This document shows positions 22,894-54,117 of a stretch of DNA of 64,000 nt, one piece after another. The notes beneath the pieces are model-generated. The model searched no databases, was not told where the DNA came from, and saw nothing but the letters and a program-made list of their open reading frames with translations. Source of the DNA: Paenibacillus polygoni (GTDB taxonomy: Bacteria; Bacillota; Bacilli; Paenibacillales; Paenibacillaceae). Numbering within the stretch: the stretch's first letter is position 1; each line of letters opens with the position of its first letter. The DNA lies in assembly GCF_030263935.1 (NCBI RefSeq), contig NZ_CP127162.1, positions 4,678,001-4,742,000 on the forward strand. The letters are read 5' to 3'. The position numbers were made by a program, and so were the translations under genes.

Positions 22894-22898
22894 TTTGC

Positions 22899-23354: not shown

Positions 23355-23379
23355 ATTTTTCAGGAAGAAGGTGTATTCA

Positions 23380-24951
23380 ATGGGCACAAGTCATGAGGCT
23401 TCCTATATGATTGGAGTCGATATTGGTACCACCAGCACCAAGGCTGTCCTGTTCCAGGAAGATGGAACAATTATTGCGGAGGCAAGTCAAGGCTATCCCT
23501 TACATACCGAAGGCGCAATAAAAGCAGAGCAAGACCCTGATTTGATCGTGAAAGCCGTTGTTTATTCGATTCAGGAGGTAATGACGAGTAGTGAACTACC
23601 CGCTGATAAAATACAGTTTGTCTCCTTCAGCTCTGCTATGCACAGTGTGATTGCCATGGATCATTCGGGTAATCGGCTTACCCCCGTTTTGACTTGGGCA
23701 GATAATCGCAGCGCAGCATATGCAAAACAGCTTAAGAAAGACAAGACTGGTCAAGAAATTTATACAAGAACAGGTACACCGATTCATCCGATGTCCCCGC
23801 TCACCAAGATCATGTGGTTTACTCGGGAACAGCAAGACCTAATGCCTCAAATTCATAAATTCATATCGATTAAAGAATATGTATTCTATCAGTTCTTTGG
23901 GGTATACATGGTTGATCACTCTATCGCTTCCGCCACAGGACTCCTTCGCATGGATACCTTGGACTGGGATGAAGAAGCCCTGCGTTTGGCAGGGATCTCG
24001 GCTGATCATTTATCGGAGCTTGTTCCTACGATGCATGTGATACAAGATCTCCATCCCTCCTATGCTGAGCAGATGCATCTCTCCCCTTCCACTCCTTTTG
24101 TGGTAGGTGCGAGTGACGGTGTGTTATCTAATCTAGGCGTAGGGGCCATTGACCCCGGCGTTGTTGCCATTACTATCGGTACGAGCGGGGCGATACGCAC
24201 CGTAGTTGATCGCCCTATTGCTGATCCGAAAGGCCGTTATTTCTGCTACGCGCTAACGGAGCAGAAGTGGGTAATCGGCGGCCCTGTGAATAATGGGGGC
24301 GTGATTTTCCGCTGGATCCGTGACGAACTCGCTTCTTCTGAAGTCGAGACAGCAAAACGGCTGGGCATGAATCCTTATGAAGTACTCGCTGCTATTGCAG
24401 AAAAGGTTCCTGCCGGTTCGAATGGACTTTTATTCCATCCTTATATGATGGGAGAAAGGGCGCCTCTATGGAATCCTGAAGCCCGCGGTTCCTTTTTTGG
24501 CCTGACGCTGCAGCATAAGAAAGAACATATGGTACGCGCCGCTCTGGAAGGAGTTCTGTTTAATCTATATACCGTCATGCTCGCCATTGAGGAACAGATC
24601 GGAAGACCGAAAACCATTCACGCGACCGGCGGTTTTGCTCGTACAGAATTATGGCGGCAGATGATGGCTAATATTTTCGATCAGAAAGTTGTTTTTCCAG
24701 ACAGCATCGAAAGTTCTTGCCTCGGTGCAGTAATTCTCGGGATGTACGCAACAGGGAAAATCGACTCTCTTGATGTAGCAAAAGACATGATGGGCTCTAC
24801 CTATCATCATGATCCTGAAGCAGAACCGGTTTCCGTCTACCGCGAGCTGCTGCCTATCTTTATTCGGATTTCTCGCAAATTTGAAGAAGAATATGCGGCA
24901 GTTACTGCTTTTCAGATCGAGATGGAAGAACGGCTTCCTAAAAACATTTAA
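23380..24951 (+). CDS. gntK: FGGY carbohydrate kinase, gluconokinase-like
   Basis: A 523-residue kinase of the FGGY family. N-terminal GVDIGTTSTKAVLF and C-terminal ATGGFARTELWRQ mark the two actin-like ATPase lobes; FSSAMHSVIAMD and TWADNRS are typical of gluconate kinase (GntK). It would phosphorylate gluconate or a related sugar acid. The ATG at 23380 follows AGGAAGAAGG. It lies directly after the IS element and a terminator-like hairpin, so its link to the upstream ABC operon may be broken. A xylulokinase-like substrate cannot be excluded. Confidence 0.8.
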   Translation: MGTSHEASYMIGVDIGTTSTKAVLFQEDGTIIAEASQGYPLHTEGAIKAEQDPDLIVKAVVYSIQEVMTSSELPADKIQFVSFSSAMHSVIAMDHSGNRLTPVLTWADNRSAAYAKQLKKDKTGQEIYTRTGTPIHPMSPLTKIMWFTREQQDLMPQIHKFISIKEYVFYQFFGVYMVDHSIASATGLLRMDTLDWDEEALRLAGISADHLSELVPTMHVIQDLHPSYAEQMHLSPSTPFVVGASDGVLSNLGVGAIDPGVVAITIGTSGAIRTVVDRPIADPKGRYFCYALTEQKWVIGGPVNNGGVIFRWIRDELASSEVETAKRLGMNPYEVLAAIAEKVPAGSNGLLFHPYMMGERAPLWNPEARGSFFGLTLQHKKEHMVRAALEGVLFNLYTVMLAIEEQIGRPKTIHATGGFARTELWRQMMANIFDQKVVFPDSIESSCLGAVILGMYATGKIDSLDVAKDMMGSTYHHDPEAEPVSVYRELLPIFIRISRKFEEEYAAVTAFQIEMEERLPKNI

Positions 24952-28248: not shown

Positions 28249-29763
28249 CTACTCCTGCGTATATTTCACTTTCAATCCGACTTCAAACGTACGATTCCAT
28301 GGCATATAACAATCGGTGATCGTTACCTTACCCTCGGAACCATTGATCTTCTCTTCTAATACTTCTGCTAATCTCGCTCTTACATAACTTGCTACTTCAC
28401 CGCGAGGCCCATCCAGCAGAAACTTGTTATATCCCATCTGATCTACGAGACCAGCATTCAGCTCTTTCCGCACGATGGCGCAGTAACCCGCATCCTCAGC
28501 ATATCGAAGGGATAGAAAATCGAGATGTTCCTGCGTACGTCCATAATGGGTGTATAGAAGGGCCTGGGATATCACGGTCCCGAGTGAATTTGAACTTGTG
28601 TTCCAAGCGGCATAACCTGCCAGCTGAAACAGCATTCCTTTTTGACGCAGCATCTTTACAAGCTTCAGATCTGCCCCGTTGGCATATCCTACATCGGCTA
28701 CCGCTACCGCTTTTCCCTGCTTCAGCAGGTAACTCCCGTACTCCACCAGCTCCATTAAATTTCGGTACACATCATAACTGAAAAAAGGATGTTCCTGCGA
28801 AACAGCTTCCATCATGGTCTCTCCAGGTGTGCTTGCCAGTAAGATGAGGTCCGCTTCCGCTGCACTCGAAGCAATCAGTGCACCTGCCGCAGTAATCTGG
28901 TATTTCAGTGTTTCATAGAAAAAACGATCCTCATAAACCGGGGTCACAAAAGCCCCTTGAATGGAAGACAGCCTTGGATATACAAGCGGCTGTACCCCTT
29001 TCCACTCGTTAATCAGCCTCGCCATCAGCGTACATCCCACCTCATCGGCTCCCGGATACATATACGCTTTCAGTTCCAGATCCAGTTCTCCAATACGCTG
29101 CCTTGCTACCTGCTGATCCTTTGCTGTATAACCATACGGTGCAGAGTCGTCCTGCGGAAAAATCAGAAACTCAATCGTCCCGTCTTTTACAAGTTCCAGC
29201 ACAGCTTTGTTCGCTTCCATATTGATTTTTCTTCGGCCTAAATAATCATTCAGCACCTCATCCGGCAGGCGGCTATTGATATCGCTCAGTTCCTCCAGTT
29301 CTTCTGGCGCTACAATATTCAGCTCTTTTCGGTGATCAATGTACCCCTTCCGGAAAATTTCGCGGCCCCAGTCGGCATAATAATCCGGTTCTTCATCCGA
29401 GATCGAATACTGCGGACAACGCATGATGAGCTGGAAGGCCAGCAGTTTCAGTTCAGGACGCTTCTCTTTTATTTTTCGCAATCGGTTCAGCCGTTCGAGT
29501 AATACGGTTTCACTAAAATAATGCAGGCGAGAAGGGATGATTCCTCCATACAGCAATGTATCCAGCGCAATAACCGCTCCATCTGCGGTTTCTATTTTCT
29601 CTTCGAGCCATGTCCACAGTTGTTCCCAGTCTCCCGGTGTTTTCTTTTGTCCCATCATGGACAATGGGGGGCGGTCGATTTTATGCTCCGTTCCTTGGAC
29701 AAGCATGTACGGGAATTCGTAGTTACATGGTCTTTCATCTAAAGGGATAAAGGTGATTTGCAC
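28249..29763 (-). CDS. DUF4127-type protein
   Basis: A 504-residue protein of the type annotated as DUF4127: it starts QITFIPLDERPCNYEFP, then has ALDTLLYGGIIPSRLHY, FPQDDSAPYGY and YPGADEVG. No signal peptide or TM helix is seen. Function is unknown; its acidic and His-rich motifs suggest a metal-dependent hydrolase, which is inference. I start it at the GTG at 29763 because GAGGAG lies 7 nt upstream; longer in-frame starts run into the 168-bp repeats. It lies upstream of nanE, pointing to amino-sugar metabolism. Confidence 0.75.
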   Translation of the reverse strand: MQITFIPLDERPCNYEFPYMLVQGTEHKIDRPPLSMMGQKKTPGDWEQLWTWLEEKIETADGAVIALDTLLYGGIIPSRLHYFSETVLLERLNRLRKIKEKRPELKLLAFQLIMRCPQYSISDEEPDYYADWGREIFRKGYIDHRKELNIVAPEELEELSDINSRLPDEVLNDYLGRRKINMEANKAVLELVKDGTIEFLIFPQDDSAPYGYTAKDQQVARQRIGELDLELKAYMYPGADEVGCTLMARLINEWKGVQPLVYPRLSSIQGAFVTPVYEDRFFYETLKYQITAAGALIASSAAEADLILLASTPGETMMEAVSQEHPFFSYDVYRNLMELVEYGSYLLKQGKAVAVADVGYANGADLKLVKMLRQKGMLFQLAGYAAWNTSSNSLGTVISQALLYTHYGRTQEHLDFLSLRYAEDAGYCAIVRKELNAGLVDQMGYNKFLLDGPRGEVASYVRARLAEVLEEKINGSEGKVTITDCYMPWNRTFEVGLKVKYTQE

Positions 29764-29801
29764 GTTATCACTCCTCGCTTGTATTCGGGGGCTCCTGTTC
29801 G

Positions 29802-30303
29802 GGCGCTCCTGTTCTGGCCTCTTCGCTCCGACTTGTTTTGAATGCGAAGGGTTTCTAGGTAGAGGAATCTCTGCATTCAAAGCCAAAAGTCGCTCAGAAT
29901 CCAGAACACTCGCTCTGCAAGGGGGACTTGGGGGCGGGGCGTTTCACTCCACCCTTACCTCAATATTAGGTGCTCCTGTTCTGACTCCTTCGCTCCGACT
30001 TGTTTTGAATGCGAAGAGTTTCTAGGTTGAGGAATCTCTGCATTCAAAGCCAAAAGTCGCTCAGTATCCAGAACACTCGCTCTGCAAGAGGGACTTGGGG
30101 GGCGGGGCGTTTCACTCCACCCTTACCTCGATATTAGGTGCTCCTGTTCTGACTCCTTCGCTCCGACTTGTTTTGAATGCGAAGAGTTTCTAGGTTGAGG
30201 AATCTCTGCATTCAAAGCCAAAAGTCGCTCAGTATCCAGAACACTCGCTCTACAAGGGGGCTGGAGGGCGGGGCGTTTCACTCCACCCTTACCTCAATGT
30301 TAG
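29802..30303. repeat. Three tandem copies of a 167-168-bp hairpin repeat
   Basis: Copies begin at about 29802, 29969 and 30137 and are more than 90 percent alike by eye. Each holds a long imperfect palindrome: CGACTT, then TTTGAATGC, AGAG, TTC on one side and GAA, CTCT, GCATTCAAA, AAGTCG on the other (in copy 2 the main arms are 30004-30012 and 30040-30048). Each then has a G-rich tract and GTTTCACTCCACCC. No credible gene is in it. Confidence 0.85.
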
Positions 30304-30310: not shown

Positions 30311-30727
30311 GATGCCTTTGGCATGTCAGCCTAATATCCACTTGGCTGACTGGTTTGTTAGGTGTTTTTAGCCTTCGGCGTCGATCTGCCGTTTCTACAC
30401 TAGGCAGATGAGGTAGGGCAAAACCTCTGTAGCCTTCGGCGTTTGTCTGCCATTTCTACTTTAGGCAGACGGGGTAGGGCAAAACCCCTCTAGCCTTCGG
30501 CGTTTGTCTGTCGTTTCTACTTTAGGCAGACGGGGTAGGGCAAAACCTCTGTAGCCTTCGGCGTTTGTCTGCCTTTCTACTTTAGGCAGACGGGGTAAAG
30601 CAAAACCTTGTAGCCTTTGGCGTTTGTCTGCCTTTCTACTTTAGGCAGACAGGGTAGGGCGAAACCTTGTAGCCTTCGGCGTCGATCTGCCTTTCTACTT
30701 TAGGCAGACGGGGTAGAGCTGTCTCTT
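30311..30727. repeat. Seven tandem 57-61-bp hairpin repeats
   Basis: Units start near 30312, 30369, 30430, 30491, 30552, 30611 and 30670. Each begins TAGCCTTCGGCGT-like and carries a stem GTCTGCC/GGCAGAC around an 11-13-nt loop (TTTCTACTTTA), then GGGGTAGGGCAAAACC. Stem changes are paired: ATCTGCC/GGCAGAT in the unit at 30369 and GTCAGCC/GGCTGAC in the diverged first unit (30325-30331 with 30344-30350). Not a CRISPR: there are no unique spacers. Confidence 0.85.
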
Positions 30728-41649: not shown

Positions 41650-42161
41650 TTTTTGCCGACCTCCTCAATATCGCAGTCCAGTCAGGTTATATTACCTTCT
41701 CTCCTGAGGACGTACTTAAGGATAATGGAGATTTGTAAACTGAATTTAAACTGTGAAATGCTTTTTCATTTCAGTATGGATATTAAATCAGCACCTAGAC
41801 GGAAAATAATTCTCTTGTTCATTGAAAGAATTCAACCGCATATTTCATAAAATCGAGTGATTTGGATATAAGAAGAACCCTCATCATACGTCACCATGCC
41901 GGCATCATGCGGATTATATAATGCATACAGGGAATTTGAATTATGACGAGAGTTAGAATGAGATTTATGACGAAATGTATGATGTAGAGGAGTAAAAGTG
42001 CCGCAGGACCGACAGTTCCTGCTTTTTTTCGTTTAAAAGCGTTAAAACTACATGATAAACATTTGCAATAACTTTTACAGACCCTAAAAACATGTTCTGA
42101 GGCAACTGCCCATATACTATAACGTTCGTGCTAACATCCGCATCAAGAAAGGAGCTGTGCG
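41650..42161. other. 512-bp gap with orphan terminator
   Basis: No credible gene. It holds the minus-strand promoter area of the ABC exporter (TAATAT near 41690), a plus-strand TATAAT at 41917-41922 without a good -35, and a plus-strand terminator at 42003-42030. The stretch 41925-42030 could be a short transcript (candidate sRNA), which is weakly supported. Confidence 0.4.
42003..42030 (+). terminator. Orphan terminator upstream of the glycosylation cluster
   Basis: GCAGGA/TCCTGC stem (loop CCGACAGT) followed by seven T. Its sequence is almost the same as the terminator at 38123-38146, but no gene precedes it on this strand. Confidence 0.7.
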
Positions 42162-43361
42162 ATGCTCTCTTCTTCCATTGTTGTATTTCCTCCGCGTGAA
42201 CCGGGCCCCTTGCTTACCAAACTCTTATCTGTGCTGTGTGAGGAATATGATGTCTATTATCTGTCTGAACCTAAGCTTCAAGAAGGAGAACAGGTAAAAA
42301 ACGAAGCACAACTCGCCGAGCTGCCGTCAGATGTGCTTTTACTCACGCCCTCCGAACTTCATACCGTCTGTGCAGAAGATACCCTTGCTATTGTTGCTCA
42401 TCCATACTGGCTGCATGTGGCCGCTTCCCAAACAGAAGCACAGCTCATCATGCTCGATTTCGAAGATGAAGAAGACGCAAGCAGTCTATTCCATACTTGC
42501 TCAGAACAACTTCGGGCCATATCTTCGCTTTATTGTTCCCGCTCTGAGATGAAGTGTCTGGATGCGACTTTTCGAGGGACGCCAGCTCTATTCTTGGATG
42601 AGGAACAAGGAAGCCTAGACCTGGACCTTTTTATACATGCAATCCATGAAATCACGGAGGATGTCCCTGTCTCTGCCCCTGAGATTCAGTGGACTAAGCG
42701 TAAAGCGCACTACCGTGCTATGAGAGAACAGAACGGACCTCATGAGACATTTTCATTTCTTTTAGCTGTATATCATTACTTATTAGGAGAACAAGAAGCA
42801 CTGCATTATGGAGAAGAGGCCTTTCTGCAGGCAGTGATAAGCGGTCAGCATCAGTCTCTGATCTCTCATTACCGGTTTCTATCCGCCATTCATGCAAAGC
42901 TAGGCAACCTGCAAACAGCAGCAAATATATACGGGATTACGGCCTTTGGTGAAACCGAGGCAAGACAATATGAGAACATCCTATTTCTTCTGGCTGAAGA
43001 TCAGGAAGTCCTTGCACGAGCGGAATTACTTCGACTGAATGATGACTATGGGGCAGCATTCACTCTTATTAAGCAGCTCCCTGCTGATCATCGTATTCGT
43101 CTCCTGCTGTTTCATATGTACCGAGAAACGGGACGACTGGAACTTGCTCTATCACAGGTTCACTCCTCTGACTTGCTCTCAGCAGAAGAACGGTATCTGT
43201 TTCGCCTGTTGTGCGGCCAAGTGGAAGCAATCCGCGGAGAACGGCACGCAGCCATTCGCCTATTTCTAGAGGCATCTGCCGAGAAGGAAGAGGCTCTTGT
43301 TCATATCGCTGCGCTAGAGGTACTGGATGACAAGGTTCATAATTTACTGAAAGGGAGCTGA
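42162..43361 (+). CDS. Unknown protein with TPR-like C-terminal half
   Basis: A 399-residue cytosolic protein. The first 170 residues (SSSIVVFPPREPGPLLTKLL) resemble the N-terminal Rossmann half of a GT4-type glycosyltransferase, without a recognisable catalytic C-lobe. The rest (about 190-395) is all helical with TPR-like pairs (EALHYGEEAFLQAV, LAKLGNLQTAANIYG-type turns, YRETGRLELALSQV). GAAAGGAG precedes the ATG. It heads a three-gene plus-strand operon with GT2 and GT4 enzymes, so a scaffold or partner role in glycosylation is inferred. No family recognised. Confidence 0.6.
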   Translation: MLSSSIVVFPPREPGPLLTKLLSVLCEEYDVYYLSEPKLQEGEQVKNEAQLAELPSDVLLLTPSELHTVCAEDTLAIVAHPYWLHVAASQTEAQLIMLDFEDEEDASSLFHTCSEQLRAISSLYCSRSEMKCLDATFRGTPALFLDEEQGSLDLDLFIHAIHEITEDVPVSAPEIQWTKRKAHYRAMREQNGPHETFSFLLAVYHYLLGEQEALHYGEEAFLQAVISGQHQSLISHYRFLSAIHAKLGNLQTAANIYGITAFGETEARQYENILFLLAEDQEVLARAELLRLNDDYGAAFTLIKQLPADHRIRLLLFHMYRETGRLELALSQVHSSDLLSAEERYLFRLLCGQVEAIRGERHAAIRLFLEASAEKEEALVHIAALEVLDDKVHNLLKGS

Positions 43362-43369
43362 TTGTACTG

Positions 43370-44116
43370 ATGTCAGATCCTTCTCCCTCTATCTCTAATG
43401 TACGTAAACCAGAAGGTAATTCATTGACCGCCATGCTGCAAGTACACAATGAGGAACATCGCTACTTGGAAGAGGTACTTACGGACCTCTCTACGTATGT
43501 TGATCACATTGTTATCGTTGATGATGCCAGTACAGATCGTACAGTCGAGATCTGTAAGTCATTTGAGAAGGTAATCAAGCTTGTACAGCTGCCAGCATCC
43601 TTATTTGCAGAGGAATGGAAATTACGTTCTATCCTGTGGCAAGCCGCTGCTTCTACTTCTCCCGACTGGCTGCTTGCTGTTGATGCTGATGAATTGTATG
43701 AAGAACGGGCCAAGCGTAATATACGAGGGCTTATTAATCAGAATCGTTATGACTCAGTCAGCTTTCGGCTCTATGATCTGTGGGGCAGCCGGCAGTATTA
43801 CCGGGAAGATAACTTGTGGCAAGCACATAAAGGGGCAACCATGACACTTGTTCGCTTTTTCAAAGACTATCCCTACTTTTATCCCAAAATGCAGCATCAT
43901 GTACCTCGGCTGCCGCTTACCTGTTCCGCGCTTCCAGGGCTTACCACAGACTTACGTATCAAGCACCTGGGCTGGTCAGGACCACTCGAAGAACGGGTTG
44001 AGAAATATGTCCGCTACAAAAAAATGGACCCGGAAGGGCGATGGGGAAATGTTGCCCAGTATGAGTCCATTCTGGATCTGAAACCCAACCTTCTGGAATG
44101 GAAGGAGGAAGATTAA
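43370..44116 (+). CDS. Family 2 glycosyltransferase
   Basis: A 248-residue GT-A enzyme. The nucleotide-sugar-binding start is LTAMLQVHNEEHRYLEE, then IVIVDDASTDRT, and the metal-binding DxD-type motif LLAVDADELYEE. The C-terminal half (about 115-248) is Trp/Tyr-rich and has the HVPRLP and RIKHLGWSG segments of the SunS-like/WcaA-type GT2 subgroup. No TM segments, so it is cytosolic. AAAGGGAG lies 12 nt before the ATG. Adjacent genes on both sides belong to the same operon. The acceptor is unknown. Confidence 0.83.
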   Translation: MSDPSPSISNVRKPEGNSLTAMLQVHNEEHRYLEEVLTDLSTYVDHIVIVDDASTDRTVEICKSFEKVIKLVQLPASLFAEEWKLRSILWQAAASTSPDWLLAVDADELYEERAKRNIRGLINQNRYDSVSFRLYDLWGSRQYYREDNLWQAHKGATMTLVRFFKDYPYFYPKMQHHVPRLPLTCSALPGLTTDLRIKHLGWSGPLEERVEKYVRYKKMDPEGRWGNVAQYESILDLKPNLLEWKEED

Positions 44117-45325
44117 TTGTACGTCAGCATTCTTACGCACAGCTTTGCAGACGGATATAACCGTGATTTCGAGAGGCTATTTGGAGGCGGGCTGGAACGA
44201 TATATCTACGAGCTCTGTCAGGTGATTCGCTCACTCGGTCATACTCCACAGGTTCATCAATTATCCTACTATGATTCTTTCCACCGCCATATTGAAGAGA
44301 TTGAAGTGTTTGGATATGCTTATGATCCGCAGCGTATACCGGATGCATTTGAGGAGATGGCTTCAAAGGCAAAGGGTCCCCTCATTTATGCCAGCTGTAT
44401 ATGGCATCCGCTGCGTTATTCCCCGAATAGTCTCGGGATATGTCACGGAATTAATTGGGATCGCCCAAGTCTTCCAACTGAAGTGAAACAGGAAGTAGCG
44501 GTCTCAATACAACACGCTCTGGATCATTTAGAGACTATTGTGTCGGTTGACTCTCATTTTCTCACCTTTTGCAGAGCCGTTTGTACCTTTAACGATCCGC
44601 AGAAGATTATCTTAATTCCAAACGCAGTTGATACTCATTATTTCAAACCGCTGGAGTCTGCTTTAAAAGAAACAGAACTTGAAGAGCATACTTTACGCAA
44701 AAAAACCAATTACAGAAAGGTTCATCTTCACCAGTCAGAAGAGGAGCTTGAAGCAAGTGACGAGGAACAGCCGGGACGGATACGAATTCTTTTTCCACGT
44801 AGAATTAGTCTAGAGCGTGGAATCATTCCGATGATGCTTTCGGCTGACTATTTATTAGGTCTATACCCTCAACTCGAAATTGAGTTTGCAGGAGAGCGGG
44901 TACAGGGAAGCACCGTGGGCAGAGCTTTTGAAATGTGGATGAAGCATCATCCTCATAAAGCACGCATTTTTTCCAAAAGCTATCTTTTTGATGAGATGAT
45001 TACCGCCTATCATATGGCAGATATCGCGGTTATTCCTACGATTTTCTCTGAGGGAACTTCCTATGCCTGTCTAGAAGCCATGAGCTGCGGACTTCCGGTT
45101 GTAGCAAGCAATGTCGGCGGTCTCAATGATCTAATACAGGATGGCAATAACGGCCTGTTAGTCTCACCTGAAGAATCTCATATTACAGCTGCCCTATGCC
45201 GCCTTATTGACGATGAAGACCTCCGGTTACAGCTTGGCAAGCAGGCACGGCAAACCGCACTTAGTTATGATGAAGAGAAGTGGAAATCGGCTTGGAAAAA
45301 GGTACTGATCCCCTTCCTCAGATAG
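44117..45325 (+). CDS. Family 4 glycosyltransferase (GT-B)
   Basis: A 402-residue GT-B enzyme starting with TTG directly after the stop of the GT2 gene (AAGGAGG upstream). N-lobe has GGGLERYIYEL and SVDSHFL; the C-lobe has the donor site FPRRISLERGI, the family E-x7-E motif SEGTSYACLEAMSCGLP, and VVASNVGGLNDLI. A charged insertion of about 40 residues (roughly 180-222, rich in Glu/Lys/His) separates the lobes and is unlike most GT4 enzymes. It likely extends a glycan begun by neighbouring enzymes; sugar and acceptor are unknown. Confidence 0.88.
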   Translation: MYVSILTHSFADGYNRDFERLFGGGLERYIYELCQVIRSLGHTPQVHQLSYYDSFHRHIEEIEVFGYAYDPQRIPDAFEEMASKAKGPLIYASCIWHPLRYSPNSLGICHGINWDRPSLPTEVKQEVAVSIQHALDHLETIVSVDSHFLTFCRAVCTFNDPQKIILIPNAVDTHYFKPLESALKETELEEHTLRKKTNYRKVHLHQSEEELEASDEEQPGRIRILFPRRISLERGIIPMMLSADYLLGLYPQLEIEFAGERVQGSTVGRAFEMWMKHHPHKARIFSKSYLFDEMITAYHMADIAVIPTIFSEGTSYACLEAMSCGLPVVASNVGGLNDLIQDGNNGLLVSPEESHITAALCRLIDDEDLRLQLGKQARQTALSYDEEKWKSAWKKVLIPFLR

Positions 45326-45342
45326 CGTGACGTCTATCTAGA

Positions 45343-47250
45343 CTACAATAGCACAAGCGGATGTAATTCAGACCTTTTCAGCGGTGTGCTGATTACATAG
45401 GTAAGAGCATTCCATCCGCAGCGTGCGATATGCACCTCTGAAGCGGGTATATATTTCTCCTGTTGTTCTTGTAGAAATGACCTTAGTTTCGTATCAGACA
45501 GCAGCTCATTTTCCCCAGGAATCATCCGGGTATGAAGAGCAATCCACAGCATATAGCAATGACTTTTCAGGATTTCATCCGGCTCTTGATCTCGTTTCCG
45601 TTCTCGTTTCCCTTCCCGCTGTAGTTCCTGCTCTAGCAAAGAACGCAGCTGCTCTACTACCCAAATCGGTGCATGAACGAGTGCCATCTTCATCGCTGGA
45701 GATAGGGCAGACAGCAGCATCCCAGGAGATGGATCACTGCGCAGCATAGAAGAAAAACCGTACCATGCACCGATACGAATGAACATTTGGCAGGCATCCG
45801 CGGCAGAGGAGAATCGATGCAATTGAGGTTTATCCAAACCAGTCTGCATGCCGCGATGCCCTAATTTGAGTGCAGTCTTGCTATATTCTAAGGCCGCTTG
45901 GATGGTTTCTGTCGGTTCACGGTGGGCTGGAGATTGTACCCACGGCTGAATATAACGGCAGGCCGTGCTGTATTCTCCGATCTGTGCTTGTAAAAGTGCT
46001 TCTATCCAGGGTTGGGCCAAAAAGGCACCCTGCAGGTCTTCTTTATGTTTTACAATCCAAGCTGGCTGTTGCAAATCGAGCATGAGATAAAATACGAGCA
46101 ACTGTACTTTTTTCGGAATTCCATGCTTCTTCACCCAATCATTCAACTGCTCTATCTGCCCGGTACCAACAACAAGCGGAAGCCATCTCTGCCATGCCGG
46201 CACATAATCTGGTCGGTACTCAAGAGAAACCCTATAAGATTCACAAGCTTTCTTCCACTGACCTTGCCGCTCTAGCAGCATCCCTTGTAAATAAGCGGTC
46301 CGGTAAGTCCCCGCTCCCGACACCGAGGTATACTCCCTCGATATACACATACCATCCAGCACATGAAGAGCCTTGTTATCTTGTCCCTCATCCATGAGGA
46401 GTACAGCATGAAGCTCCTGTAGATCAGCAAAGTTAGGAAAAGCAGTCAGTCCTTGCTCAATCTGCTGCAGTGCATCTTTTGCCCGGCCTGTTTCTCTAAG
46501 TGCATACATCGTTTTTAGGAACAGATCGGAAGCATAACCTTCCGTAACAGGCAGACTCGCAAGCAGCGGTTCAAAGATAGGAAGTGCCTGCGAATAGTCT
46601 GCTTGCTGAAAATATTCTGTGCCCAGGGCATATAGCAGTTCTCTGTTTTTTGAATCAGCAGCCAGCGCCTCCTTAATAAGCCGAAGATTGCGCTCGGTTT
46701 TATTTTTTTGTTCAATAATATGGGTGAGGTAGCCGTAGTGAATAATTTCCAGGTCACAGCGCTTTAACTGCTGACCCGGCTTCGCTTGAACTGCAGAGGC
46801 AATCTGTTCGTGAATGGATCCGCTAAACTTTATTTCGGGATCATTACGAAACAACCGGCACACATAGTCTGTTACCTGCTCATCGCCTTGGTGTCCAAGT
46901 AGACTTTTGATTTGCAGTTCATATCCTGCAGCCGCTTCATCTGCACAAAGTGCACACAATTTTTCTTTCTGACCATCAGCAACACATTCATCTGCATCCA
47001 GAACGAGAATCCATGGCTTGGTAGCGAGTTTTAAAGATTCATTTCGTGCAGCTGCAAAATCAGACTGCCATGAATACGAAATGACCTGTGCGCCGTATTT
47101 TTCTGCTATGGAACAGGTTGCATCTACCGAGCCGGTATCGAGAATGATCACTTCCGATACCATATCAGCTACGGAAGACAAGCACTGGGAGAGAACCCAT
47201 TCTTCATCTCTGACAATCATACAAAGGGACACAGGAGAATCTGGATTCAT
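45343..47250 (-). CDS. GT2 glycosyltransferase fused to TPR repeats (1)
   Basis: A 635-residue protein. Residues 1-100 are GT2: SLCMIVRDEEWVLSQCL, VIILDTGSVDAT, LVLDADE. The GT region continues to about 190 with RLFRNDPEIKFSGSIHEQI. Helical TPR-type repeats (about 190-420: LYALGTEYFQQADYSQALP, LMLERQGQWKKACESY) and a helical C-terminus follow. The organisation is like SunS-type peptide glycosyltransferases and TPR-GT2 proteins. GAGGAGG precedes the ATG. First in distance of three similar minus-strand genes; probably modifies the repeat protein or another surface protein, by inference. Confidence 0.85.
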   Translation of the reverse strand: MNPDSPVSLCMIVRDEEWVLSQCLSSVADMVSEVIILDTGSVDATCSIAEKYGAQVISYSWQSDFAAARNESLKLATKPWILVLDADECVADGQKEKLCALCADEAAAGYELQIKSLLGHQGDEQVTDYVCRLFRNDPEIKFSGSIHEQIASAVQAKPGQQLKRCDLEIIHYGYLTHIIEQKNKTERNLRLIKEALAADSKNRELLYALGTEYFQQADYSQALPIFEPLLASLPVTEGYASDLFLKTMYALRETGRAKDALQQIEQGLTAFPNFADLQELHAVLLMDEGQDNKALHVLDGMCISREYTSVSGAGTYRTAYLQGMLLERQGQWKKACESYRVSLEYRPDYVPAWQRWLPLVVGTGQIEQLNDWVKKHGIPKKVQLLVFYLMLDLQQPAWIVKHKEDLQGAFLAQPWIEALLQAQIGEYSTACRYIQPWVQSPAHREPTETIQAALEYSKTALKLGHRGMQTGLDKPQLHRFSSAADACQMFIRIGAWYGFSSMLRSDPSPGMLLSALSPAMKMALVHAPIWVVEQLRSLLEQELQREGKRERKRDQEPDEILKSHCYMLWIALHTRMIPGENELLSDTKLRSFLQEQQEKYIPASEVHIARCGWNALTYVISTPLKRSELHPLVLL

Positions 47251-47288
47251 TCGCGTATAAGCCTCCTCTTATCCTTAGTGGATGTGAT

Positions 47289-49055
47289 CTACCTAAATCC
47301 GTCTGGCCATGGAAGTCTAAGCCGAATATGCTGGACAAGACGAGTGTTCACATCACCATTTGCCTGCGTTTGGATTGCAGATAGATGCCCGTCTGCTGCC
47401 GAAACCATACTGCTTACATACTTCTTCGTTCCCACTAGAGCTGTCTCAGACAAGGCTTCTCTGTTCTTTTCTAAGATACTGCGCCAGACGCCTGTAATCC
47501 CTACAAACATCTCTCTCTTCCCCGCATGATCCGCTGCTTCCAGAAGTTCTGCAAAGCTAGACCAAGTCTCCTCGGTTAAAGGCTTTAACTCCTTATCTAT
47601 CCCCTGTTCGATGAGGAGAATGGCCTGATCTTTAAAGACCTGCTTCTTCCCTGCACCAGAAGGGATATCTAAACTCCACATCAGCCAATCTTTCTCTTGT
47701 TCAGAAAAGTCAGGGTTCTCGTGCAGCAGACGAGCTGCACTCTCCCAATCCCCGCTCCGCCACCGCGCCATGGGCTTACTTACATGGATCGTCTTATGAA
47801 GAACGGACGGCTGATCCCATTCCTGCAAAATGGATAAGACAGCTAAGTAGCATCTGCTATCATTCAGGATTCCAATCATTTTCCACATTGCTTCTTGTGA
47901 TTCTATACGAAAGCGTGCCTCGATAAGCTCTGGCAGTCGCTCCTCCTGTCTAGTAACCTGCAGGATACGGCAGATCCGGTATAACGGCGGAAGCAGACTT
48001 GGCTTATACCGAACTGCCTCGACATAGGCATCTACGGCTTCTTCGAGCGCTTCTCTTTGTTCCGCATACTGACCTAGCATATAGAGCGTTTGGAAGGTGC
48101 CGATCCCTTCCTCTGTATGGTACATCTCCGCTGCAGGCCCCATATGGAGGGCTTCTTGAAGAATCTTTTCGGCCTCCTCTGTTCTCCCGAGCGTATTCTG
48201 GGTAAAGGCCTCAGCATGCAGCAGATCTGTATAGCCCGGGTACAGTCTACGCCCTTCCGCAATCTTTTCCATTGCCTCTCCCCATTGCCCAAGTGCCTGC
48301 AGACATCGCACTTCATATTTAAGAACCAAATGCGCATAACTGACACGTGCGGGGTCTAAGCCGCTCCATGACTTCTGAAAACACCTTAACGCCTGCTGTA
48401 GTTCCCCCATTCGTAAGTACTCCACACCCAGATTGTAATCATGAAACGGATTCCCAGGATCTTCTTCGATAATTTGCTGGAGCAGCTCCATATTTCGATT
48501 CACTTTGTTCTTAGCAGAGACAATCGTCTCGCTGTACCCGTAATGATGAATAATTACATCGGTCATATGAAAATGAGCTTCTGTCCGTTGACTCACAATG
48601 GATTCGGCGATCTGTTCATGAATTCTTCCCTGAAAACGGTACTCTGGTCGATGCCGAAACATACGAAGTACCGGATTAATCGTGACTCCACCCGAACCGT
48701 TTCCTGTATAATTATGGATTTGTAAAAAGTAACCTTCGATCCCATCCTGCTGCGCCCAAATCGGAAGTTCTCTTGCTCCCTGTTCATCTATTCTTTCATC
48801 TGCATCAAGAAACAGAATCCAGTCACCGGCAGCTGCCTCAAGCCCCGCATTTCTAGCCGCCGCAAAATCATGAGACCACGTAAAGTGGACGATAGAAGCG
48901 CCGTAACTTTCTGCGAGCTGAACCGTGTTGTCTGTTGAACCCGTATCCACAACGATGATTTCATCAACAGCTCCCTGTACACTTTCAAGACATGCGGGCA
49001 GCATTTGTTCCTCATCTTTTACGATCATGCATAGAGAAATGGTTTGACTCGGCAA
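47289..49055 (-). CDS. GT2 glycosyltransferase fused to TPR repeats (2)
   Basis: A 588-residue paralogue of the flanking GT2-TPR proteins. GT2 part: SLCMIVKDEEQMLPACL, IIVVDTGSTDNT, WILFLDADERID, then LRMFRHRPEYRFQGRIHEQI (about residue 150). TPR-like part from about 190 (DYNLGVEYLRMGELQQALRC, YMLGQYAEQREALEEAVDAY). It starts 4 bp after the end of the upstream GT gene on the same strand, so the three minus-strand GTs and perhaps the repeat-protein gene are one transcription unit. No signal or TM segments: cytosolic. Confidence 0.86.
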   Translation of the reverse strand: MPSQTISLCMIVKDEEQMLPACLESVQGAVDEIIVVDTGSTDNTVQLAESYGASIVHFTWSHDFAAARNAGLEAAAGDWILFLDADERIDEQGARELPIWAQQDGIEGYFLQIHNYTGNGSGGVTINPVLRMFRHRPEYRFQGRIHEQIAESIVSQRTEAHFHMTDVIIHHYGYSETIVSAKNKVNRNMELLQQIIEEDPGNPFHDYNLGVEYLRMGELQQALRCFQKSWSGLDPARVSYAHLVLKYEVRCLQALGQWGEAMEKIAEGRRLYPGYTDLLHAEAFTQNTLGRTEEAEKILQEALHMGPAAEMYHTEEGIGTFQTLYMLGQYAEQREALEEAVDAYVEAVRYKPSLLPPLYRICRILQVTRQEERLPELIEARFRIESQEAMWKMIGILNDSRCYLAVLSILQEWDQPSVLHKTIHVSKPMARWRSGDWESAARLLHENPDFSEQEKDWLMWSLDIPSGAGKKQVFKDQAILLIEQGIDKELKPLTEETWSSFAELLEAADHAGKREMFVGITGVWRSILEKNREALSETALVGTKKYVSSMVSAADGHLSAIQTQANGDVNTRLVQHIRLRLPWPDGFR

Positions 49056-49058
49056 TTC

Positions 49059-51218
49059 TCACACCCCTCTCCTTCTTGCCTGACCGTCCCAAGCTGTTTT
49101 CCAGTTCAGGTCATCTAACCTTTGCAGACTGCCCGTGAGATCGGCAACATCCTGAGCTAAGGTAGCATATGTGCTTTCTGAGGTTTTTGCAGTTTCAGTA
49201 TTCAGCATTCGTACAGCCGCTTCTCTTGCCAGTTGCAAGCAGCTGGCTGCTGCCCCTATCCTAGCGCGGTTATGATCTTTGGATAGTGTGACTGCCTGCT
49301 CAAATAAAGCAAGGGACTCCGAGTAGTTCGCACGGTCATACATAAATTCGGCCAGGTGAGACATCCCCTCTAAATGAAGGTGCCCTTTTGCTAATTGCTC
49401 TAAGTACTGCTCTGCTGCCTCCAATCGGTAACCGTGTTTATATAAAAGATCCGCTGCTGTACCAGGTGACAATAACCCAGCCTTTTTCATGAATAGCAGC
49501 AGATCTTTCTGCCCGCAGGCTGCCGCTCGGTCCGCTAGTTTCTCTGCTTTCTGAAGTAGTATTCCTAAATCCAGCTGAGGAAGATCTTGAGTTTCATTCT
49601 GCTGTTTTATGTTTAACAACTGCCGCTCTATCTCCAAATAGAACACGCTGTCCTCATTACTATGCTTATAGAACACTTGCGGTAATGGCTCAGCACAGGA
49701 CCATGAACAGATCGCCCAGTCCATTACGGCTAAATCTATTTGCTTCTGATCGTATGGAGATATCGGCAGATTACTGAATTCCTCAGTAAGTCCCTTGATT
49801 CGCTCTAATAACAGCTGGGATCGCTGTATTGCTTGGGGCTTTCTTTGGGTCTGAATCAGACAGGCGCGGGCCCAGCTTTCCTCTTCTATGCCAATGGATT
49901 GCACAGGCAGAATGGATAGAGCCGCTTCATATGCTCCGCACGACATGAGTGCATAAGCCGCCTTTTGCAGATGTCCGGGGTTCTCTCTGTCGATTAACTC
50001 CACTAAAACTTGCTGAATAGAGGGATCTGCTATCCCTTCTTTTTGCAGCAAATCAGCTAACCCGCTTATCGCCGGAAGATAACCTTGATGTGCCTTTATA
50101 GCAGCCCGGTAGTGATCCTCTGCATCGGATGATCTCCCCTTGCGTTTATCTATTTCTGCCATATGGGTGAGTGGAATATAGCTGTCTGCCCCAGCCTCCG
50201 TAACATAAAGTGCAACTTGGTTCTGGGTAGAAATAGAGGACTTCACTGCTTTTTCAAAATAGCCATAAGCTTGCTCAGACATCCCGTACTCCTGTTCAAC
50301 AAGCCCAAGCAGAGTGTAAAGATCAGGATAATCTCTATACCGCCTGATTTCTGCCAGCAATAAATTCCTTGCCTGTTCTAACTCCTGGTTTGCATAAAGC
50401 AGCTTTCCTAAGTCCCGTACTAAAGTCGCTCGGTATGGAGCATTCACGGGGCTGCTACTTAGTGCCTGCAAGAAAGCTATTCTAGCCTGCTCCCTATCTT
50501 CTAATTGGCAGTACGTTACCCCAAGATTGTAGAGATGAAAAGCATCATCCGGGTTTATTAGTAGCGCCTGCTGGATTATTTTCAAATTACGCAGAGCCGT
50601 CTGTCTACTCTCAATGACCGCAGGAAGATACCCATAATGATTCACTTTCAGCGGACAGATGGAAGGAGGCATGGAGGCTGTTTTTGTCCTAGTCGAAGAG
50701 CATTTCACTCCATGCCCTATATTCAGCCGAATATTCAGTCCGATCTCTCCCAAAGACTCTTGATCTGCTTGAACAAGCTGTTCGTGAATCAGCCCTTCAT
50801 ACCGGTAACCATATCTATTTCGAAACACGCGCGGTGCAAAATAATGAATACACTCCTCGGGACCAGATCCCGTCCAGTTCACAAGTTCAATCAGACACTG
50901 GCTTCCTTCTTCCTGACTCAGAAACTCCTTAATCTCTTCCTGCCCGGCTATCACCTGTTCATCTGCATCCAGCACTAGAATCCAATCTGTATTTGCATGC
51001 ACTAACCCTGCATTACGGGCTTTTGCAAAGTTATGCTCCCACGGACTGCGAATTACCGTCGCTCCGTACTCTTCTGCTATGGCAATAGACCGATCGGTAG
51101 AACCCGTATCGACAATAATCAGCTCATCAGCCAGCGTATGAACCTGTTCCAAACATGCGCCTAGCCATTTTTCTTCGTTATATACAATCAGGTGAACTCC
51201 CAAAGTAGGAATACTCAT
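49059..51218 (-). CDS. GT2 glycosyltransferase fused to TPR repeats (3, largest)
   Basis: A 719-residue GT2-TPR protein. GT2 motifs: HLIVYNEEKWLGACL, LIIVDTGSTDRS, WILVLDADEQV, RVFRNRYGYRYEGLIHEQL; several TPR-like blocks follow (FHLYNLGVTYCQLEDREQA, LYTLLGLVEQEYGMSEQA and more to about 680). I start it at 51218, where GGGGGAG lies upstream; a longer frame runs back 381 bp through the terminator and the C-terminal part of the repeat gene in another frame and is not credible. It is the first of the three minus-strand GTs after the repeat protein. Confidence 0.86.
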   Translation of the reverse strand: MSIPTLGVHLIVYNEEKWLGACLEQVHTLADELIIVDTGSTDRSIAIAEEYGATVIRSPWEHNFAKARNAGLVHANTDWILVLDADEQVIAGQEEIKEFLSQEEGSQCLIELVNWTGSGPEECIHYFAPRVFRNRYGYRYEGLIHEQLVQADQESLGEIGLNIRLNIGHGVKCSSTRTKTASMPPSICPLKVNHYGYLPAVIESRQTALRNLKIIQQALLINPDDAFHLYNLGVTYCQLEDREQARIAFLQALSSSPVNAPYRATLVRDLGKLLYANQELEQARNLLLAEIRRYRDYPDLYTLLGLVEQEYGMSEQAYGYFEKAVKSSISTQNQVALYVTEAGADSYIPLTHMAEIDKRKGRSSDAEDHYRAAIKAHQGYLPAISGLADLLQKEGIADPSIQQVLVELIDRENPGHLQKAAYALMSCGAYEAALSILPVQSIGIEEESWARACLIQTQRKPQAIQRSQLLLERIKGLTEEFSNLPISPYDQKQIDLAVMDWAICSWSCAEPLPQVFYKHSNEDSVFYLEIERQLLNIKQQNETQDLPQLDLGILLQKAEKLADRAAACGQKDLLLFMKKAGLLSPGTAADLLYKHGYRLEAAEQYLEQLAKGHLHLEGMSHLAEFMYDRANYSESLALFEQAVTLSKDHNRARIGAAASCLQLAREAAVRMLNTETAKTSESTYATLAQDVADLTGSLQRLDDLNWKTAWDGQARRRGV

Positions 51219-51240
51219 CGTGAACTCTCCCCCGGTTACA

Positions 51241-51276
51241 AAAAAAATACATGGGCCTCTGTTGAGGCTCCATGTA
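51241..51276 (-). terminator. Terminator after the repeat-protein gene
   Basis: On the minus strand TACATGGAGCCTC and GAGGCCCATGTA pair around AACA, then seven T. It lies 22 bp after the repeat-protein stop and just before the GT2-TPR start, so the GT genes may depend on read-through or an internal promoter. Confidence 0.85.
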
Positions 51277-51297
51277 CGTATATGTGTGCAGCGCTTA

Positions 51298-52731
51298 TTA
51301 TGTGCCTTGTCCGTTGAAATACACACTAATGGTGGCAGGTATTCCTGGCGTGCTGGATCTATAAGCAAGCCTTGTATATTTGAGAAAACGCTGCGGAACA
51401 AGCACATCAACAGATCCTGCAGCAATTCCTGTAACTGTATCCACATCAGTGAACCAGTTCGTACCATTCGCGCTGATTTCAACCCTTGCATCCGCACTGC
51501 CTGTTGTCCCTGAGTTATACACAAAGAAAGAGTAGGTTCCAAACACACTTGTCGTGACTGGAGATAGCGGGGTGTAAGCATCCGCTGTAGTAATGCCAAG
51601 CGTCGGAATTTCCTGAAAGCTTTTCTGTGATATGGATGTAATACTATCTAGTCTTCCGGCTGTAATGGTTGCTCCGAGTACACTTGTGATCGTACCGTTC
51701 AGCAAACTCGATAGAGTTCCTGCTGTGATGGTTGTTCCCAGTACACTCGTTATCGTCCCTGCGGTAATTGTGGTTCCTAGTACACTCGTCAGCGTTCCCG
51801 CTGTTATCGTTGCTCCGAGCACACTTGTCAGTGTTCCATCCAACAAGTTCGTGAGTGTACCTGCAGTGACTGTGGCTCCTAGCACTCCCGTTATCGTCCC
51901 TGCGGTAATTGTGGTTCCGAGTACGCTCGTCAGCGTTCCTGCTGTGATCGTTGCTCCGAGTACACTTGTCAGGGTTCCATCCAACAAGTTCGTGAGTGTA
52001 CCTGCTGTGACTGTCGCTCCCAGCACGCTCGTCAGTGTTCCATCCAGCAAGTTCGTAAGTGTACCTGCTGTGACTGTCGCTCCCAGCACGCTCGTCAGTG
52101 TTCCATCCAGCAAGTTCGTAAGTGTACCTGCCGTAACTGTAGCTCCTAGCACACTCGTCAGCGTTCCCGCTGTGATCGTTGCTCCGAGTACACTTGTCAG
52201 TGTTCCATCCAACAAGTTCGTGAGTGTACCCGCCGTAACTGTAGCTCCCAGCACGCTCGTCAGTGTTCCATCTAACAAGTTCGTGAGTGTACCTGCCGTA
52301 ACTGTGGCTCCCAGTACTCCCGTTATCGTCCCTGCTGTAATCGTTGCTCCGAGCACACTCGTCAGTGTCCCGTCCAACAAGTTCGTGAGTGTACCTGCCG
52401 TAACTGTAGCTCCTAGTACTCCCGTTATCGTCCCTGCTGTGATTGTAGTTCCGAGTACGCTCGTCAGCGTTCCCGCTGTGATCGTTGCTCCGAGCACACT
52501 TGTGAGTGTCCCCGCCGTAATTGTCGTCCCGAGTACACTTGTAATTGTACCCGCAGTAATGGATACGCTCGTGATGATAGGCATGTTACTAATCGTACCA
52601 TCCAAAATAACACCCACCAGATTACCTGATGGATCCGTACGCACAGGATGGGATACTTCGTCATTATCCGTACCATATATCAGCGTTCTTAAATTGTCCG
52701 GGTTTAAATTAAAACTTGAAAAGTTTGGCAT
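51298..52731 (-). CDS. Thr-rich tandem-repeat surface-type protein
   Basis: A 477-residue protein. N-terminal 53 residues (PNFSSFNLNPDNLRTLIYGT) have no signal peptide. Residues 64-361 are 18 copies of a 13-residue unit (TSVLGATITAGTL) mixed with 8 copies of an 8-residue unit (TNLLDGTL). Residues about 385-477 form a beta-rich domain (FGTYSFFVYNSGT, RVEISANGTNWF, RFLKYTRLAYRS) that I think is the type called DUF6385; this is from memory. The periodic Thr and hydrophobic residues suggest a beta-solenoid or fibre. I start it at 52731 (GGAGG, 6 nt). Adjacent glycosyltransferases make it a likely O-glycosylation substrate, by inference. Confidence 0.8.
   Translation of the reverse strand: MPNFSSFNLNPDNLRTLIYGTDNDEVSHPVRTDPSGNLVGVILDGTISNMPIITSVSITAGTITSVLGTTITAGTLTSVLGATITAGTLTSVLGTTITAGTITGVLGATVTAGTLTNLLDGTLTSVLGATITAGTITGVLGATVTAGTLTNLLDGTLTSVLGATVTAGTLTNLLDGTLTSVLGATITAGTLTSVLGATVTAGTLTNLLDGTLTSVLGATVTAGTLTNLLDGTLTSVLGATVTAGTLTNLLDGTLTSVLGATITAGTLTSVLGTTITAGTITGVLGATVTAGTLTNLLDGTLTSVLGATITAGTLTSVLGTTITAGTITSVLGTTITAGTLSSLLNGTITSVLGATITAGRLDSITSISQKSFQEIPTLGITTADAYTPLSPVTTSVFGTYSFFVYNSGTTGSADARVEISANGTNWFTDVDTVTGIAAGSVDVLVPQRFLKYTRLAYRSSTPGIPATISVYFNGQGT
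51649..52542 (-). repeat. 39-bp and 24-bp tandem modules inside the repeat gene
   Basis: Eighteen 39-bp modules and eight 24-bp modules in mixed order code the 13- and 8-residue units. Several 63-bp pairs (one of each) are nearly identical in DNA, so copy number is likely to vary by recombination or slippage, and assembly could collapse it. Confidence 0.9.
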
Positions 52732-52969
52732 CAAGGGCCTCCTCCATAGAACATGATCTAACACCGCAGCAGTGCTACGTCATTCTATGCCAGGACCCAG
52801 CGAGTAGTAACGGCTCAAGCCGCACTCTTTTTTTCAGGGTAAGGACAACCCAAACCAAAGACTCATTTTTTCCATATACTAGTCTTGGATAATATTTATC
52901 ATTAGCCGTGTTCAAGCAGCCATAACGAAGGAAACTTAGGAACTGAATTCTACTAAAGGAGGAAGATTG

Positions 52970-53503
52970 ATGACCAACTATCATGTATTTAATTCACCCA
53001 ATCGGCCTTTGTACACACAGCAGATGAATACTTATGTATCCCCTGGTGTTGAAGCTACTCCTGATGCAGGAGCTGCGGCCGCTGGAAGACTGTTCTCCTT
53101 AACAACGGGAAACGTTGCGGTAGCTTCGGGTAGCAGTCTGTTATTACAGGTAGTTAACCCCGCAGGCAGCGGTCGTACTCTATACTTCTCGCAAGCGATT
53201 GGGGGGACTACTGCTGCTGCTTCGCTTATTTTATACCGGGGAGGCACGTTAACTGGCGGAGCTGGATTGACTCCGATTAATAATCTTTTTGGAAGCCCGA
53301 TTACAAGTGTAATGACAGCGCAGCAAGTAACGGGTTCCATTACAGGAAGCCCTGTCAGCATCATGAGCATTCCTCTAACCTCAGGTGCTTATCAAGTTCG
53401 GCTTCCGGGGACAATCCTTGTTCCACCAGGTCAATCCGTAACATTTAGTCTTGGAACAGGTGCACTGACGGGATCCATCAATGTAAGCTGGTGGGAATTT
53501 TAA
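52970..53503 (+). CDS. Small Gly/Ser/Thr-rich surface-type protein, paralogue 1
   Basis: A 177-residue protein starting TNYHVFNSPNRPLYTQQMNT, then Ala/Gly/Ser/Thr-rich beta-type sequence with VVNPAGSGRTLYFSQAIGG, and ending in ILVPPGQSVTFSLGTG and WWEF. No signal peptide or TM helix. AAAGGAGGAAGA precedes TTG-ATG; I use the ATG. It has a clear paralogue next door. Divergent from the repeat-protein gene. A single jelly-roll-like domain of a spore or cell surface coat is a guess; I do not recognise the family. Confidence 0.7.
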   Translation: MTNYHVFNSPNRPLYTQQMNTYVSPGVEATPDAGAAAAGRLFSLTTGNVAVASGSSLLLQVVNPAGSGRTLYFSQAIGGTTAAASLILYRGGTLTGGAGLTPINNLFGSPITSVMTAQQVTGSITGSPVSIMSIPLTSGAYQVRLPGTILVPPGQSVTFSLGTGALTGSINVSWWEF

Positions 53504-53535
53504 AATGAAAAGTTATGAAGGAGGGATACTACTCT

Positions 53536-54117
53536 ATGCCTAACGATCACATTTTTAATAGTGCGAAAAAACCTCTGCAACAGCTCCAACTAAATACGTA
53601 TCAGTCCCCCAGCGCAGCAGCTCCTACAGAAGCGAGTGCAAGTCAGGCGGGAAGGCTGTTTACAGCAGGAGCAACGAACTCAGCTACGCTTGGACTGCTT
53701 GGCGGATCTTCTATCATTACCATACAGCTGACCAATCCCGCAGGCAGTGAAAGAACCGCATATATTTCTCGCATTTCGGGCGGCATCAATGTTTCACTTA
53801 GCTTGTTATCCTCATTTACCGGGTCTATGACAATTAGTAGAAATGGTACTTTAACAGGACCGACTACACTGACAGCCTCTAACTTAAATTTTGCAAGCAG
53901 TAACTCAAGTCTTATGACTGTCCGCTCATCTACCTCTGCTTCTACTGGAGGAACTTCCATTCTCTCCATGCCTCTAGCTCCAGGACCCCTTGAATATAAC
54001 GAGTTCGGAGATTTTATCATCCCTCCAGGTCAATCTTTCTCAATAACCATAAGCGGCGCTTTGTCTGTTGCAGGGGTTCTTGCCAGTACAGCCAACCTCG
54101 TCTTTTGGGAGGTCTAG
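53536..54117 (+). CDS. Small Gly/Ser/Thr-rich surface-type protein, paralogue 2
   Basis: A 193-residue paralogue of the previous gene with the same plan: PNDHIFNSAKKPLQQLQLNT at the start, LTNPAGSERTAYISRISGG in the middle, and FIIPPGQSFSITISG with a WEV end. AAGGAGGG lies 10 nt before the ATG at 53536. It follows the first copy by 32 bp, so they are co-transcribed. Its last 4 bp overlap the convergent MFS gene. No signal peptide, so export, if any, is by a route not readable here, as for many spore-coat or exosporium proteins. Confidence 0.7.
   Translation: MPNDHIFNSAKKPLQQLQLNTYQSPSAAAPTEASASQAGRLFTAGATNSATLGLLGGSSIITIQLTNPAGSERTAYISRISGGINVSLSLLSSFTGSMTISRNGTLTGPTTLTASNLNFASSNSSLMTVRSSTSASTGGTSILSMPLAPGPLEYNEFGDFIIPPGQSFSITISGALSVAGVLASTANLVFWEV

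Follow-up and report, generated by a model that had tools for sequence, protein, structure and literature searches.

A 64-kb window of the single-contig, 4.94-Mb genome of Paenibacillus polygoni, beginning at genome position 4678001, carries nine neighboring genes in which glycosyltransferase (GT) genes stand around the gene of a Thr-rich repeat protein. This cluster is probably a conserved, sporulation-timed cassette for protein O-glycosylation, and its candidate acceptor, a repeat protein ending in the domain DUF6385, is of a new kind. The linkage between DUF6385 genes and genes fusing a family 2 GT domain (GT2) to tetratricopeptide repeats (TPRs) is strong, and on the basis of the observed gene content, conserved linkage, enzyme family, consensus promoter boxes and composition, we infer the chemistry and the spore location. 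Our favored interpretation, held with reasonable confidence, is that the cassette is a widespread system for O-glycosylation of spore-surface proteins, with DUF6385 repeat proteins as its candidate acceptors.

The repeat protein begins with a head of some 50 residues and ends in DUF6385; between them lie 18 units of a 13-residue kind (GTxTxVLGxTxTA) and 8 of an 8-residue kind (GTLTNLLD or GTLSSLLN). Thr accounts for 24% of the whole chain and 29% of the repeats, Cys is absent, and the array is visible in the DNA at 51654-52560 (Tandem Repeats Finder). An earlier note on this DNA had described a Thr-rich two-module repeat protein, and the composition and both kinds of unit confirm the description, but the note overlooked the C-terminal 82 residues, which match DUF6385 (PF19912; E 2.8e-28, 98.2 bits versus a cut-off of 26.8). 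It had also proposed that neither this protein nor the two Gly/Ser/Thr-rich paralogues of the cluster (G8 and G9) has a signal peptide, which agrees with the lack of a strongly hydrophobic N terminus in all three, judged by hydropathy alone and not by a signal-peptide predictor.

The P. polygoni genome has a single DUF6385 gene, of the repeat kind only. Across the phylum, DUF6385 proteins fall into two kinds, one with a head (MPNxxxFNxxPxxLRTxIYG...), repeats that differ wholly from lineage to lineage and DUF6385, the other with a varied module followed by DUF6385. The N-terminal module of the second kind is basic and Cys-bearing in Paenibacillus proteins from three loci (L031, L033 and L038), and CBM96 scored above its cut-off in second-kind proteins of L084, L085 and L088 (3 of the 10 DUF6385 proteins scanned). 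The second-kind protein of L082 matched SipL/SPOCS (E 3e-4). SPOCS is a spore-coat domain; because this single match lies under the curated cut-off, it is a mere hint of a tie to the spore coat. Sequence searches of the Protein Data Bank (PDB) gave no significant match for the repeat protein, the DUF6385 profile or the G8 profile, and the name DUF6385 was absent from all literature searched, mostly open-access texts. Very long DUF6385 frames were seen in Paenibacillus methanolicus (L171, 1766 amino acids [aa]), Sediminibacillus (L175, 962 aa) and Thalassobacillus (L176, 1748 aa), where G8-like genes lie downstream of the GT2-TPR genes, not upstream.

Linkage of DUF6385 and GT2-TPR genes

Within the genus, 36 genomes were sampled (own included), and GT2-TPR 2, one of the three fusions of the window, was compared more widely in 59 genomes. 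DUF6385 occurs in 19 of the 36, own included. All 19 hold two G8/G9-type matches, versus one weak match each in 2 of the 17 genus genomes without DUF6385. A GT2-TPR 2 match with E ≤1e-90 was found in all 19 and in one genome of another family (G042), and the other 39 of the 59 had none better than 8.5e-75; at a looser threshold (E 1e-20), GT2-TPR-type matches turn up in as many as 49 of the 59 genomes. Independent occurrence of the repeat protein and the GTs, set beforehand as the refuting outcome, was not seen, since the pair co-occurs in 19 of 19 genomes and the close orthologue is absent from all 17 genus genomes without DUF6385. GT2-TPR genes adjoin the repeat gene in all 18 same-genus neighborhoods, and G8 and G9 are present in 17, the remaining contig ending early. 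The ABC2 and ABCp genes (ABC, ATP-binding cassette) also flank the cluster in most of these neighborhoods; therefore, the genus linkage is partly plain colinearity, and the test outside the genus is the stronger one.

DUF6385 is present in 56 of 398 phylum genomes (own included) and 42 of 266 genera. Of these, 49 genomes that lie outside the family of the window were searched with a GT2-domain profile of the GT2-TPR-type enzymes, whose matches were called by their GT2 domain and are mostly frames of 500-900 aa. In total, 78 of 121 matches lay within 10 kb of DUF6385, where 0.98 was expected from genome size. The link was found near DUF6385 in 33 of the 49 genomes; 5 had matches elsewhere only, and 11 had none at the cut-off. 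Among 20 phylum loci, 16 have a strong GT2-TPR, and L085, L086, L094 and L098 have none.

A pattern scan with one genome per species returned 100 stretches, 99 of which encode a relative, and the best 80 form our named loci, a skewed set that is mostly Paenibacillus and was picked via one conserved peptide. Other taxa in it are Cohnella, Bacillus methanolicus, Kyrpidia, Hydrogenibacillus, Thalassobacillus, Sediminibacillus, Desulforamulus, Desulfosporosinus and others. A GT2-TPR profile match at E ≤1e-40 is present in 80 of 80. The GT4, GT2 and TPR-like (TPRu) genes belong to the conserved row, because homologues occur in 53, 59 and 41 of the 80, some of these loci being cut off ahead of the genes in question. 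Two-component, major facilitator superfamily (MFS) and ABC neighbors were considered as members and excluded, with HK, MFS and ABC2 genes in 0, 18 and 31 of the 80, respectively.

When 75 GT2 domains were placed in a tree, the GT2-TPRs grouped separately by their three positions, and the groups bring together several families of Bacilli. Support was moderate (89/73, 82/96 and 88/83) and came from a bootstrap that had not settled; the 88/83 group includes two genes not beside DUF6385. Because these positional groups span several Bacilli families, the row of three GT2-TPRs may be old or may move as a unit. The proposal of the earlier note that the genes form a single functional system thus has good support, both from their linkage inside and outside the genus and from the enrichment of sporulation-type promoter boxes (see below).

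A G8-like frame is present in just 49 of 80 named loci, so the paralogues G8 and G9 are not tied to the cassette core. Ser and Thr make up 23% of G8 and 28% of G9. In Pfam scans, neither reached the cut-off of any family, and BclA_C was not matched by G8, G9 or four relatives (maximum E of 5, with filters that drop most matches above 0.1). Two relatives bear a BclA_C-type name in a source, without Pfam support, and we rejected G8 and G9 as BclA_C-domain exosporium proteins on the lack of a Pfam match.

Enzyme kind and composition of the repeats

All three GT2-TPRs match PF00535 above its cut-off, each has at least one TPR model above cut-off, and the DxD motif is kept in them and in the TPR-free GT2. 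They share with the GmaR/SgtA type both an N-terminal GT2 (GT-A) domain with DxD and C-terminal TPRs. Among solved structures, a PDB sequence search placed GT2-TPR 2 closest to GmaR and next to SunS (E values in Table 1). Against the SunS equivalog TIGR04195, the three score 82.1, 88.5 and 60.5 bits versus 350 required, the best match having an E of 4.1e-25. With these two as nearest structural relatives, and with SgtA as a GT-TPR enzyme acting on a repetitive spore protein, the enzyme kind fits protein glycosylation by analogy. Double GT2 proteins of 1099-1200 aa, with two GT2 domains per chain, were seen near DUF6385 in three families (L089, L092 and L096).

The repeats themselves were compared over 41 loci, which hold 32 head-bearing DUF6385 proteins, two of them too short to measure. 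The Ser+Thr fraction of the repeats is 0.28 in the 23 proteins beside a GT2-TPR versus 0.20 in the 7 without one (P = 0.004); the same comparison gave P = 0.02 for Thr alone, and acidic residues go in the opposite direction (P = 0.09). Head-and-repeat DUF6385 proteins without a GT2-TPR in the stretch examined were noted in L085, L180, L086, L187, L188, L182 and L186, and the repeats of L085 and L180 are clearly acidic, as if an unglycosylated version exists.

These comparisons bear on what the enzymes modify. It is conceivable, if rather unlikely, that the GTs make a spore-coat or cell-envelope polysaccharide that DUF6385 proteins merely bind or display; GT2 and GT4 enzymes are common in polysaccharide loci, and the CBM96 matches would suit a polysaccharide. 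However, Pfam matched none of the nine genes to a flippase, polymerase or nucleotide-sugar family, three of the five GTs belong to the protein-acting GmaR/SgtA/SunS type, and the repeats beside a GT2-TPR are richer in Ser+Thr. We consider it improbable that the GT2-TPRs glycosylate other neighbors (G8/G9 or the second-type DUF6385 protein) and leave the repeat protein unmodified. Both paralogues are adjacent and Ser/Thr-rich, but a G8-like frame is missing from 14 of the 16 phylum loci that have a strong GT2-TPR, and the window has three GT2-TPRs yet its genome has a single DUF6385 gene.

Candidate sporulation signals and weighing of the glycosylation reading

The promoters read by the mother-cell factors sigma-E and sigma-K have in common a -10 box resembling CATAnnnT(A). 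The sigma-K-like arrangement AC-N17-CATATACTA upstream of G8 occurs once in the 64 kb and in 0 of 100 shuffles, and both of its boxes are kept in L134-L136, with variation in mid-spacer. The window holds one further CATATACTA, placed 42 bases before the TPR-like gene; at least 2 copies were found in 6 of 100 shuffles. CATAYANT lies within 200 bases upstream of 4 of the 35 window gene starts tested, the G8 and TPR-like boxes being two of these. Over 50 loci, CATAYANT was found upstream of G8 in 27 loci in sense and 5 in antisense (shuffle mean, 2.0), and a strict sigma-K pattern was found in 7 and 3 (0.3). Over 68 loci, the first DUF6385 gene is preceded by CATANNNTA in 24 sense and 8 antisense cases (5.2) and by CATAYANT in 9 and 35 (2.9), and the antisense matches to CATAYANT are taken to be mostly divergent G8 promoters. 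Of the 56 DUF6385 genomes, 54 carry SpoIVA, versus 336 of all 398 (P = 0.003); both exceptions are incomplete genomes, at 75% and 80%.

That the product is a vegetative surface or appendage glycoprotein instead of a spore one would suit the repeat gene of the window, which has neither -10 box before it, but it seems improbable given the enrichment of mother-cell-type -10 boxes across many loci, the lack of a hydrophobic N terminus and the SpoIVA link. A phage-derived tail fiber with its own modification genes is very improbable, since its fiber-like short repeats and one weak PHROG match (E 0.007) stand against 0 of 74 pattern stretches confirmed in viral contigs and a chromosomal neighborhood conserved across the genus.

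Under the favored glycosylation reading, the repeat protein, which would need no signal peptide, is made by the mother cell during sporulation. Three cytosolic GT2-TPRs would bind it via their TPR domains and attach sugars to Thr (and Ser) in its repeats. These glycans may then be extended or decorated by the GT4 and the TPR-free GT2, and the glycosylated rod would become part of the outer spore layer by way of its two ends, the head and DUF6385. In many relatives another DUF6385 protein, of an anchor-like kind, may join the rod, and the putative jelly-roll proteins G8 and G9 may accompany it in many Paenibacillus. It is possible, at somewhat under even chances, that DUF6385 marks a separate phylum-wide class of spore-surface glycoprotein fiber unlike the BclA nap and ENA fibers, namely, an O-glycosylated head-repeat-DUF6385 rod with its own GT2-TPRs and anchor-type DUF6385 docking, in which the repeats are free to change (TITAGT-, LDIRDL- and TAPASGL-type) and the head, DUF6385 and the enzymes stay constant.

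Several points weigh against a spore O-glycosylation cassette. First, 16 of the 49 genomes outside the family have no GT2-TPR-type match near DUF6385, 11 of them none at the cut-off. By locus, the head-bearing protein and the GT2-TPR are not significantly associated (21/8 versus 5/7, P = 0.08); the five loci scored as having the enzyme but no head include at least one miscount, as the head in L049 sits in a separate frame, and the enzyme of L190 lies some 12 kb off. Because eight loci have a head-bearing protein and no GT2-TPR in the stretch examined, such a protein can probably work unglycosylated. The seven low-Ser+Thr proteins come from few families, so the Ser+Thr difference is support, not proof, for enzyme-acceptor pairing, and the compared rows share descent, so that the P values overstate independence. 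The promoter boxes are consensus matches only, the fuller sigma-E pattern is not enriched upstream of G8 (1 of 50 loci), and the repeat gene of the window has neither CATAYANT nor CATANNNTA in its 250 upstream bases. The SpoIVA test is weak because the background is already 336 of 398. The AlphaFold2 model of the repeat protein is poor (mean predicted local distance difference test [pLDDT], 52.5), and the short strands drawn there carry no evidential weight. Finally, acceptor identity, sugar, spore location and assembly are inferred.

The reading offers a testable role for DUF6385 and for GT2-TPR genes that are otherwise called generic. With a simple 13-residue repeat as candidate acceptor and three candidate enzymes, the choice of repetitive acceptors by TPR transferases would become directly testable in vitro. 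Glycans on the surface of spores influence adhesion, among other surface properties, and are known in few species.

Cluster layout and comparison with known systems

The nine-gene set listed by the earlier note, with GT2, GT4, three GT2-TPRs, the repeat protein and two paralogues, was confirmed as open frames at the coordinates in Table 1 (open reading frame list of the window). The TPR-like, GT2 and GT4 genes come first on the plus strand, followed on the minus strand by the repeat gene with the three GT2-TPR genes downstream of it, and G8 and G9, back on the plus strand, end the cluster. The most likely start of GT2-TPR 3 is 51218, replacing the mechanical frame start of 51599, and that of the repeat protein was reset from 52764 to 52731, giving 477 aa. 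TPRu matched TPR_12 only (E 0.012), below the cut-off of that model. Among the matches listed for the named loci, the closest clusters are those of Paenibacillus sp. J45TS6 (L136), Paenibacillus sp. An7 (L134) and P. gallinarum (L135), with 87-92% identity to the window across the longest aligned stretches.

Table 1. Features of the nine-gene cluster (window coordinates)
Feature	Position	Strand	Basis
Sigma-E/K-like -10 box CATATACTA, 5' of TPR/GT2/GT4 genes	42111..42119	+	One of 2 window copies, 0.42 expected
TPR-like protein TPRu, 399 aa, no assigned role	42162..43361	+	Weak TPR_12; homologue in 41/80 named loci
GT2 without TPR, 248 aa	43370..44116	+	PF00535 9.8e-12; DxD; 59/80 named loci
GT4, 402 aa	44117..45325	+	PF00534 4.9e-22; 53/80 named loci
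GT2-TPR fusion 1, 635 aa	45343..47250	-	PF00535 2.9e-16 and TPR models; positional group in tree
GT2-TPR fusion 2, 588 aa	47289..49055	-	PF00535 6.2e-24 and TPR; PDB: GmaR 1.1e-39, SunS 2.1e-21
GT2-TPR fusion 3, 719 aa	49059..51218	-	PF00535 4e-22; DxD
Thr-rich repeat protein, 477 aa (head, repeats, C-terminal DUF6385)	51298..52731	-	PF19912 2.8e-28; repeat parse
DUF6385 domain	51307..51552 (genome 4729307-4729552)	-	Pfam match
Sigma-K-like promoter AC-N17-CATATACTA, 5' of both paralogues	52854..52881	+	Sole match in 64 kb
G8, Gly/Ser/Thr-rich, 178 aa, predicted jelly roll	52967..53503	+	AlphaFold2 mean pLDDT 80.5
G9, paralogue of G8, 200 aa	53515..54117	+	42% identical to G8

Elsewhere in the window, back-to-back tandem arrays lie at 29805-30303 (168 bp x 3.0) and 30369-30716 (61 bp x 5.8), and a 545-aa frame (28249-29886) overlaps the former with its 5' end. 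Two neighboring frames at 22087-23387 resemble, by eye, an IS3-type transposase pair and adjoin a frame resembling an FGGY-type sugar kinase, and an imperfect T-rich array of TTTTTGTGTACTC-like units occupies 6560-6743.

A literature search on the genomic context of GT2/TPR genes, mostly in open-access texts, gave no match. SunS, the sublancin S-glycosyltransferase, acts on a Cys of a bacteriocin; the GT2-TPRs resemble it in GT2 kind by profile and PDB match but fall below the TIGR04195 cut-off. We know of no link between GmaR and DUF6385. Listeria GmaR, which has the same GT and TPR architecture and is the best solved relative of GT2-TPR 2, puts GlcNAc on flagellin (PMC9638930). It differs from the GT2-TPRs in this flagellin acceptor and in carrying an antirepressor domain. 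In the DUF6385 layout, a small domain protein stands beside a long protein with the same end domain, which is like the F-ENA endospore appendages (DUF4183) with F-Anchor, where a small domain protein adjoins a long stalk protein ending in that domain (PMC11952670). None of the nine proteins had a Pfam match to DUF4183, the genome of the window gave none either, and DUF6385 as a hidden DUF4183 was rejected, because hhalign aligned one column only, with no profile similarity.

The nearest parallel in principle is SgtA of Clostridioides difficile, which has a GT-A domain and four TPRs and adds beta-O-GlcNAc from UDP-GlcNAc to Thr of peptides from the collagen repeat region of BclA3, a repetitive spore-surface protein (PMC7157674). 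The earlier note knew of no described system with this exact set, which stands for the set itself, but SgtA/BclA3 already embodies the same principle. By description, both systems pair a GT domain carrying TPRs with a repetitive protein; unlike the collagen-like BclA3, the candidate acceptor here is a DUF6385 protein with unrelated repeats, and where that system has the 358-aa SgtA, there are three GT2-TPRs, a GT4 and a GT2 here. By analogy, the cluster may thus apply the SgtA/BclA3 principle to an unrelated candidate acceptor with more enzymes.

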